From positions 1-36,741 of the forward strand of contig JAEEIN010000158.1 of the NCBI GenBank assembly GCA_016281385.1: a DNA stretch of 36,741 nt. The letters run 5' to 3'. The stretch is from Lachnospiraceae bacterium. GTDB taxonomy: Bacteria > Bacillota > Clostridia > Lachnospirales > Lachnospiraceae. The notes under the pieces are model-generated. The model made no database searches and was not told where the DNA came from. It saw only the letters and a list, made by a program, of their open reading frames with translations. Made by a program: the position numbers and the translations under genes. Of the stretch, positions 16,175 through 18,458 are shown one piece after another. Each line of letters begins with the position of its first letter. Within the stretch, counting starts at the first letter, position 1.

Positions 16175-16206
16175 AAAGGCCTCTCGGATGATTCCGAGAG
16201 GCCTTT
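16175..16206. terminator. Bidirectional terminator between convergent genes
   Basis: AAAGGCCTCTCGG-atgatt-CCGAGAGGCCTTT with A/T tracts on both sides. Confidence 0.85.
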
Positions 16207-16211
16207 GTTTA

Positions 16212-17312
16212 TTATGAAACAAGATCGATATGCTGCATTGTGCCTGCGGCGCCGTCTTCGTAGAGGAAGAATCCTGTCTGACGGACATATCCCTGAGTGG
16301 CGTTATCCGCATCGTTTAAGGAAAACTGTGTATCCACCGCACCTGTAAAGAGTGCACCGATATCCAGCTCCTTAAGGCTGTAGAGGATATCGTTTCCGTT
16401 TTGGTCCTTGGACCAGATCTTCAGCTTTTCAAAGATCGCATCACCTTCGTCTATCCAGCCGTTTTTGTCTTCATCATAAGAAGCCAGATCGGAGAAACCG
16501 TCACCGGATCTGGGACCGAAGAGCTCGGAACCGTCGTTGATGACACCGTCTTCATTAAGATCCAGTGCAAGAAAACCGCTTCCGGAAGTGAGCTTTGCGA
16601 TCTTTTCTTCCTGACCGTCCGCATCCAGATCGAAGAAGAAACTGTACTCCTTGTCAAGGCCTGCGGGGTTACCGTCAAAGTTGATCACTAACGGATCGCA
16701 GACCTGAAGGGTCTCGATACTGTGGTGTTCCTCGTAGTAGGATGCAAAGCTGCGGCTCATGAGAAGGTTCATGTTGATGTCAATGCTCCTTCCGTCCGCC
16801 GTCCTTACATTTCCGGCTACCCGAAATCTTGTGGTTTCGGATTCTGAGTAGTAACCGCTTGATGTGAATTGCCTTGTTACCATGCGATAGCTGTTTCCCG
16901 AAGGAAGCTGCAACATGGGTTGTTGTTCCTCGGCGGCAGTTTCATCACACACTTCTTCGTCTTCAAGGGAACCCTTATGGGCTCCGAAAAGAAGATAGAA
17001 AAGTGAGCGGAACATCATCTGGTGAAGCCGGTGAAATTCATTCGAGGCCTCTCTGGCCGATGTGGAAAAGAAATCGATATTTCTTGCTTTGAAGCTGTCA
17101 AAGGGGTTTGCGAGCAGATCCTTACTCACTTTCTTGTCGGCTTCCTCCTTGTCATTCTCTCCCTCATCCGTTAACAGGTTACCAAATGGCATGAGCGCAT
17201 CCTCATTCCCTTGAGCGCTTATGTCTGCCCCGGCGTAAGATGTACGCAGGGCGCTTGCAGACTTGTACAGTCTGGCGGAATCCATTCCTATGTTACAGGA
17301 ATCAATTCTCAA
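16212..17312 (-). CDS. Signal-peptide-less protein with EF-hand-like calcium-binding loops
   Basis: Start placed at TTG 17312-17310 after AAAGGAGGTAAATAT (SD), giving MRIDSCNIGMDSARLYKS...; loops FDLDADGQEE, LDLNEDGVINDGSELFG, DEDKNGWIDEGD. Confidence 0.8.
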   Translation of the reverse strand: MRIDSCNIGMDSARLYKSASALRTSYAGADISAQGNEDALMPFGNLLTDEGENDKEEADKKVSKDLLANPFDSFKARNIDFFSTSAREASNEFHRLHQMMFRSLFYLLFGAHKGSLEDEEVCDETAAEEQQPMLQLPSGNSYRMVTRQFTSSGYYSESETTRFRVAGNVRTADGRSIDINMNLLMSRSFASYYEEHHSIETLQVCDPLVINFDGNPAGLDKEYSFFFDLDADGQEEKIAKLTSGSGFLALDLNEDGVINDGSELFGPRSGDGFSDLASYDEDKNGWIDEGDAIFEKLKIWSKDQNGNDILYSLKELDIGALFTGAVDTQFSLNDADNATQGYVRQTGFFLYEDGAAGTMQHIDLVS

Positions 17313-17341
17313 ATATTTACCTCCTTTTGGTGAAAAATAAT

Positions 17342-17389
17342 AAGGACGGCTTACAGAAAAGAGGGATCCTTTCCCAATAAGTCGTCCTT
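17342..17389 (-). promoter_or_regulatory. Stem-loop in the 5' leader of the EF-hand-like gene
   Basis: Minus strand AAGGACGACTT...AAGCCGTCCTT, 11-bp stem with one G-U pair, inner GGG...CCC. Confidence 0.6.
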
Positions 17390-17398
17390 GTATTATAT

Positions 17399-17425
17399 TT
17401 ATCGGCAAAAATGTTGAAATGTTTA
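17399..17425 (-). promoter_or_regulatory. Sigma-28/SigD-type promoter
   Basis: Minus strand TAAA-CATTTCAACATTTTT(15)-GCCGATAA. Confidence 0.8.
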
Positions 17426-17495
17426 TGGAAATTTAATAAAATACTCCTTGGGGAGTTTGAGACCCTAAACTATCTTATAATGGAGGATTTGTGAT

Positions 17496-18458
17496 ATGGC
17501 ATTTTGTCCACATTGCGGAACGCAGATCGAAGACGGAGCACAGTTCTGTCCCAACTGCGGAAAGGCAACAGTAATCGTAGCGGCAGCTCCTGCAGCAACT
17601 GCTCCTACAGTAAAATCAACAGACATTCTTAAGAGAGCATTCAGTGTTCTTGCAAAGAAACCCATTTATCTTTGGGGACTTTCACTTCTTGCAACATTCC
17701 TTACCGCTCTTTCAAAGACCCTCGGCGGTGCGGTTCCGCTTATCGGTATCGCAGTTGCTTTGGTACTTGAATTCGGTATGGCGTGGGTATACCTTGAGGG
17801 ATACCGCGGAAACGAAGTTAAGGTAGATCAGATCTTTGAAGGATTTAAGAACTTTAAGCACGTTCTTGCAGCTATGGGCTGGAGAGCCATCGTTGTTCTT
17901 CTTTGGTTCATCGTTCCCTTCGCAGCATGCGCAGGCGTAGCATTTGCGATCGGTAAGGTAGCATTCGGCGGAATACTCACAATGCTTACAAATTCCTTAA
18001 CAAGCTCTCTTATGGGCGGATACGGCTCAAGCAGCTTTGGCAGAAACTTCGGCAGAGGCATTAAGGGCATGGGCGCTTTGGTAGTGATCATGGTCATCCT
18101 TATCATTGCAGGTCTTATTGCAGGTTTGGTATTCTACTGCATTAAGTACTATGCATACTCACTTGTTCCTTATATCACAGCTGAAAAGGCAGATCTTGAC
18201 GCTCTTAACATTGCAAGAGAGTCCGATGCCAAGACAAAGGGCTACAAGGGTAAGATGTTCGGAACCGATATCCTTATCGTTCTCATGATCGCAGGTGTAG
18301 GTATCGTATTCGGTATCTTCGGAAAGATCCCCGCAATCGGCGGATTCTTCGCTTTCCTCGGAAACCTTGTTGATCTTTGCATCTCTCTTGTTACACCTTT
18401 ACTTTTCGGTCTTGTTCGTGCTGCCTGGTATGAAGAGATCAACAACGCAAACAAATAA
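17496..18458 (+). CDS. Zinc-ribbon membrane protein (DUF975-like)
   Basis: MAFCPHCGTQIEDGAQFCPNCGKA followed by about six hydrophobic segments. Confidence 0.75.
   Translation: MAFCPHCGTQIEDGAQFCPNCGKATVIVAAAPAATAPTVKSTDILKRAFSVLAKKPIYLWGLSLLATFLTALSKTLGGAVPLIGIAVALVLEFGMAWVYLEGYRGNEVKVDQIFEGFKNFKHVLAAMGWRAIVVLLWFIVPFAACAGVAFAIGKVAFGGILTMLTNSLTSSLMGGYGSSSFGRNFGRGIKGMGALVVIMVILIIAGLIAGLVFYCIKYYAYSLVPYITAEKADLDALNIARESDAKTKGYKGKMFGTDILIVLMIAGVGIVFGIFGKIPAIGGFFAFLGNLVDLCISLVTPLLFGLVRAAWYEEINNANK

Follow-up and report, generated by a model that had tools for sequence, protein, structure and literature searches.

A sigma-28-type promoter and a GGA-rich leader upstream of a stand-alone relative of the FrpC self-processing module in a Lachnospiraceae bacterium

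The 36,741-nt stretch of Lachnospiraceae DNA analysed here, hereafter termed the window, carries at 17399-17425 on the minus strand a site whose features support a sigma-28 (SigD/FliA) promoter of working type that drives a late flagellar gene as a monocistronic unit. The gene behind it (16212..17312, minus strand, TTG start) encodes a protein of 366 residues combining long N-terminal beta strands with a C-terminal domain of SPM type, SPM standing for the calcium-dependent self-processing module of FrpC (PDB 6sjw, 6sjx). Between promoter and gene lies a structured, GGA-rich leader. Promoter, domain and leader are each supported by the comparisons presented below. The initial annotation of this DNA had left the function of the gene unassigned, and the SPM-type domain and the GGA-rich leader are additions to it. 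A previously unnamed gene family of many motile gut Clostridia is thereby linked to the flagellar regulon and assigned a chemistry that can be tested.

Promoter site and sigma-28 regulon

The minus strand of the site reads TAAACATTTCAACATTTTTGCCGATAA, an exact instance of TAAA-N15-GCCGATAA of which dinucleotide shuffles predict 0.03 matches per window. The -35 element TAAA (17422..17425, minus strand) is an exact match by direct reading and is conserved in homologues; the -10 element GCCGATAA (17399..17406, minus strand) is likewise exact, and its CCGATA core is intact in 16/16 same-genus orthologues, which match at least 10 of the 11 consensus positions. The initial annotation had described this motif and strand correctly, and its distance of about 90 nt to the TTG start is also right, since the last motif base lies 86 nt before the TTG at 17312. 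It had further proposed a scan of the whole genome. The draft searched (2.67 Mb, 193 contigs, 89.7% complete), in which TAAAN14-16GCCGATAW was also scanned for, holds two exact copies of TAAA-N15-GCCGATAA, the second of which, at C143:4733, precedes flgM (PF04316, 1.7e-20) and flgN (PF05130).

FliA/SigD, to whose presence the initial annotation had tied its reading, is encoded at C29:31078-31740 (261 bits against a TIGR02479 cut-off of 189.6), and the genome also encodes FlhA, six flagellin-domain genes and CsrA, with csrA located in the flagellar region of contig C24. A looser family form of the motif, TWAA-N14-17-CCGATAT, yields 37 genome matches against 7 for a reversed-pattern control. Intergenic matches include three flagellins, a FlaG gene (PF03646, 7.5e-28) and an MreB/Mbl gene; further ones lie upstream of genes for a metallo-beta-lactamase-fold protein and a cytidylate-kinase-like protein and of an uncharacterised small gene. 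The motif at 17399-17425 is one that the flagellin, flaG, mbl and flgM promoters of this genome have in common. An excerpt of PMC3720852 places mbl at the head of a flgF-flgG motility locus in related species and gives the Butyrivibrio sigma-28 consensus as TAAA-N16-17-MCGATAa.

Two observations concern other loci. A sigma-28-type motif at G000:C135:16288-16314 (plus strand, L091) is followed after 69 nt by a small gene (MAINGIGYGGFANYRV...) for which Pfam gave no match, possibly another regulon member of uncharacterised kind. Two adjoining sigma-factor-like genes of ~385 aa (G000:C105:24397-26203; L006, L007) match TIGR02479 below its cut-off and are perhaps duplicated RpoD-like sigma factors.

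Start codons of the homologues were picked by N-terminal motif and ribosome site, independently of the promoter, and the best TWAA-N14-17-CCGATAW within 300 nt upstream was scored by the same rule for all gene sets. The perfect motif was found at 66 of 119 homologues and 13 of 26 flagellins, compared with 3 of 582 other genes from the same loci; at 10/11 positions with an intact CCGATA core, a rule that every same-genus orthologue passes, the counts were 86/119, 17/26 and 17/582. A class-wide search recovered the perfect motif in 7 of 11 scorable homologue loci, most of them from other families. Homologues of the protein itself are present in 24 of 60 relatives; cultured carriers include Acetatifactor muris DSM 23669 and Roseburia sp. 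1XD42-69 (loci L156 and L192). Among 249 Lachnospiraceae genomes (mostly one per genus), FlhA occurs in 123 and the gene family in 65, and 64 of these 65 encode FlhA (Fisher p 1.3e-23, uncorrected for shared ancestry), or 60 of 62 when partial matches are dropped. In G258 the family is present and FlhA missing, and in G291 FlhA is only a weak partial match; these are either incomplete genomes or cases of flagellum-free use of the gene. Conservation of the motif together with its function and co-occurrence with FlhA, added to the presence of FliA and of the motif before flagellar genes, thus support the sigma-28 reading made in the initial annotation, and the gene at 16212-17312 is very probably under sigma-28 control.

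The gene stands alone. Of those window proteins that were scanned, none was recognised as a flagellar or chemotaxis protein, in agreement with the initial annotation, and the conserved neighbours are metabolic or cell-wall genes (glycogen phosphorylase, hydratase, Ddl, MurF). A bidirectional terminator (16175..16206, minus strand; 14 pairs, T runs on both strands) is common to the gene and the convergent hydratase gene. On the other side lies a divergent zinc-ribbon/DUF975-like gene (17496-18458), whose sigma-70-type match at 17414-17442 (plus strand) overlaps the sigma-28 site; the two promoters may therefore interfere.

The encoded protein

Pfam and NCBIfam assigned no family to the 366-residue protein (one chance Pfam match fell below cut-off), neither gave a significant match to glycine-aspartate nonapeptide (RTX) repeats, and Pfam gave none to the flagellin N-terminal domain PF00669. 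A profile of 21 homologues run against PDB sequences with hmmsearch did retrieve the FrpC SPM (6sjw, E 6.3e-9). Two AlphaFold2 models were built (mean pLDDT 69.7 and 78.6), and Foldseek placed the FrpC SPM (6sjx) on top for both, with E 3e-11 and 1e-10 and TM 0.72-0.73 by target. The likeness spans the C-terminal 160 residues (207-366; 16215..16694, minus strand), and homology to plasmid-borne calcium-binding proteins mostly begins at the Asp-Pro boundary, around residue 200-207. Judged from sequence profiles and predicted models, an SPM-type fold of this domain is nearly certain.

Since phmmer puts L208 on FrpC L416, D206-P207 (codons 16692..16697, minus strand) falls on the scissile D414-P415 bond; D206, P207 and L208 are all invariant in 124/124 homologues. 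Two EF-hand-type loops are essentially invariant in the same 124 proteins, D251-E263 (16524..16562, minus strand), equivalent to FrpC D462-E474, and D280-D291 (16440..16475, minus strand), equivalent to FrpC D499-D511. They are two intact loops out of three, the third being shorter than that of FrpC by three residues. The label "EF-hand-like" given to the protein initially was therefore apt as far as these loops go and incomplete otherwise, as they sit within an SPM-type domain. Compared with FrpC, D478 is replaced by T, A or P, D579 by H or Q and W451 by I. In FrpC itself, D478A weakens cleavage and D478N does so mildly, while D579A abolishes it and D579N is without effect (PMC7078468). An alternative pairing of FrpC D579 with the invariant D363 was dropped, the ungapped match via a Nostoc bridge sequence being H361; a Tistrella bridge sequence offered no usable Asp-Pro anchor. 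The fold is thus established by comparison, and because some residues important in FrpC differ, cleavage can only be inferred. We regard the protein as a stand-alone, divergent homologue with the SPM fold and candidate SPM activity; the chances that it performs calcium-dependent Asp-Pro cleavage appear evenly balanced.

SPM-type domains were also seen within open frames of 1168-3713 aa in other Lachnospiraceae (G123:C13:5312-5758, G179:C131:3493-3927, G216:C20:29427-29837); large SPM proteins thus exist in Gram-positives as well.

The module sits behind three long beta strands. AlphaFold2 predicts very long strands at residues 3-32 and 143-202, the latter forming a long hairpin (16707..16886, minus strand; pLDDT ~87-94) that bears a TADGRxI...MSRSF motif and stands immediately before the Asp-Pro. 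For the N-terminal half Foldseek gave no meaningful structural relative, and comparison with viral structures gave nothing. The first 16 residues (17265..17312, minus strand) follow the motif M-[RK]-I-x-S-S-x-I-G-M-x-S-x-R-x-Y, derived from 119 unique homologue N-termini, and their likeness to flagellin N-termini holds in register only. In this respect every one of the 119 homologues scores above the 95th percentile of other genes, as do 5% of shuffles, whereas the predicted structure is a strand and not a helix. The flagellin-like N-terminus may be a signal for the flagellar exporter, or may reflect convergence.

The leader RNA

The promoter position would place the transcription start near 17392, giving a 5' leader of ~80 nt (UACAAGGACG...; 17313..17392, minus strand) common to the same-genus orthologues. 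Its computed fold contains a hairpin (17342..17389, minus strand; MFE about -21 kcal/mol) followed by AUUAUUUUU. A first ANGGA site, AAGGA in UACAAGGA (17385..17389, minus strand), can be compared with the CsrA SELEX sequence RUACARGGAUGU (PMC7652899); a second, AAGGA in GGGAAAGGAUCCC (17367..17371, minus strand), lies in the apical part of the hairpin. A third AAGGA is overlapped by the Shine-Dalgarno AGGAGG (17320..17325, minus strand), read directly 7 nt upstream of the TTG, so that the leader carries ANGGA over its Shine-Dalgarno and others in its hairpin. Placement of ANGGA in hairpin loops is a known feature of CsrA sites (PMC7652899).

Same-genus leaders begin with UACARGGA, and 13 of the 14 examined fold into a hairpin at the presumed transcription start, with differing stem sequences. 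In other leaders of the family two hairpins recur: the first has a GGCC loop, and the second reads CCACGGAUGG...CCAUC-U-run. Of 10 pairs in the second, 4 have changes on both sides; covariation is given for this hairpin only, because the first is not correctly aligned by MAFFT. The leaders contain 301 ANGGA sites against 95+-9 in shuffles (3.2-fold), a ratio that drops to 1.2 for the sequence upstream of the promoter and to 1.4 in front of other genes. The sites average 2.9 per leader with the Shine-Dalgarno region excluded and are loop-placed at 41% against 21%, and the mean folding z is -3.6 against -1.0. Rfam returned only chance matches for the leader, none at gathering score. A covariance model built from the MAFFT alignment found further family leaders, whereas flagellin loci and the window gave no match; elsewhere among the loci searched it gave only a weak antisense match (L182) and a chance-level one (L135). 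The leaders of the window and of L133-L209 may thus be targets of CsrA and possibly yield a short terminated RNA, and on these sequence features CsrA binding is rather probable. We regard this structured RNA as a candidate for a new element controlled by CsrA.

Small hairpins with GGA in the loop, such as GGCAUGGAUGCC, also occur in the flagellin leaders L213, L221, L222 and L227 and are consistent with CsrA control of flagellin there.

Proposed mechanism and known systems

Taken as a whole, our best explanation, which we hold with slightly better than even confidence, combines a sigma-28 gene, an SPM relative, export, clip-and-link chemistry and CsrA. The protein would be made together with the late flagellar proteins and stay unfolded in the calcium-poor cytosol, and its most plausible exit would be the flagellar type III exporter, since it has no hydrophobic signal segment. 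The FrpC module remains unfolded for secretion as long as calcium is low, as in the cytosol, and is triggered by calcium outside the cell (PMC7078468); the flagellar exporter would here replace the type I secretion of FrpC. In the calcium-rich gut lumen the SPM would fold, strain and break the D206-P207 bond, upon which the activated C-terminal Asp of the N-terminal beta fragment would join a lysine of a neighbouring protein. CsrA bound to the GGA hairpins of the leader would probably repress translation until FliW frees the leader, in the manner of flagellin control in Bacillus subtilis. Flagellar export is put forward tentatively, and so, to the same degree, is cross-linking. An extended version, in which motile gut Clostridia export through the flagellum a self-cutting, calcium-triggered protein that attaches its beta-rod covalently to flagella or nearby proteins while the GGA-rich leader titrates CsrA and thereby tunes flagellin, is a long shot.

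Several other readings have to be weighed. We give appreciable weight, short of even, to the view that the SPM-type domain has lost cleavage and is only stabilised by calcium, for example in a structural protein associated with the surface or the flagellum; the sigma-28 promoter would then be real and the invariant Asp-Pro structural. The non-conservation of FrpC D478, D579, W451 and the third EF-hand (PMC7078468) speaks for it, but the Asp-Pro is invariant in 124/124 proteins exactly at the FrpC scissile bond, and a polar H or Q may serve in place of D579, since FrpC D579N is active. A membrane pore built of the long N-terminal strands and set free or activated when the SPM cleaves is scarcely credible. 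Long-hairpin pore proteins do come next after FrpC in Foldseek, but at TM-scores of 0.1-0.16 and 30-50 A rmsd, without a sequence match; the likeness amounts to long hairpins in both and nothing more, and this reading was dropped. A coincidental promoter match, with a housekeeping promoter driving the gene, is highly improbable: any motif may be idle, but this one is conserved at 35-58% protein identity and reaches only 3/582 in controls, the family co-occurs with FlhA, and the sole minus-strand match in the sigma-70 scan lies within the 16212-17312 gene.

As regards the leader, U runs follow the hairpin in many homologues, for example CCAUCCUUUUUU, as expected if it were an attenuator in which hairpin and U run end most transcripts early and some signal relieves the stop. 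We consider this rather unlikely as the explanation, given the 3.2-fold enrichment and loop placement of ANGGA and the resemblance of the +1 motif UACARGG to the CsrA SELEX site, although attenuation and CsrA control are compatible and can both hold.

A literature search on a link between flagella and SPM found nothing relevant, and the descriptions of FrpC-type modules that we found concern large Gram-negative exoproteins. SPM-type modules are wanted as protein-ligation tools (NeissLock). A version that is small, stands alone and is regulated with the flagella suggests that commensal gut bacteria may use calcium-triggered Asp-Pro chemistry, and that motile ones may produce, together with their flagella, a protein linker triggered by calcium. 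With the FrpC SPM (PDB 6sjw, 6sjx) the protein has in common its fold, the Asp-Pro in register at the N-terminal edge and two EF-hand-type loops, but it is a stand-alone 366-residue Gram-positive protein without RTX repeats, has a flagellar promoter and a putative activity, and differs in its shortened third EF-hand and at the positions of D478 (T/A/P), D579 (H/Q) and W451 (I).

The promoter fits the Butyrivibrio consensus given in the excerpt of PMC3720852, which deals with the sigma-28 regulon of Lachnospiraceae (Butyrivibrio, Roseburia, Eubacterium) and makes no mention of the gene family in that portion; the gene stands outside any motility locus, alone between metabolic genes in conserved synteny. 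As in CsrA-FliW control of Bacillus subtilis hag (PMC7652899), the leader has GGA sites, one of them over the Shine-Dalgarno, and csrA lies in the flagellar region, whereas many homologues here have more GGA sites, a larger structure and a terminator-like hairpin, with binding being putative. Several hairpins with ANGGA in their loops also recall the CsrA-sequestering RNAs of CsrB/RsmZ type, from which the present element, whose existence as a free RNA and titration of CsrA are hypothetical, differs in being part of an mRNA leader in a motile Clostridium.
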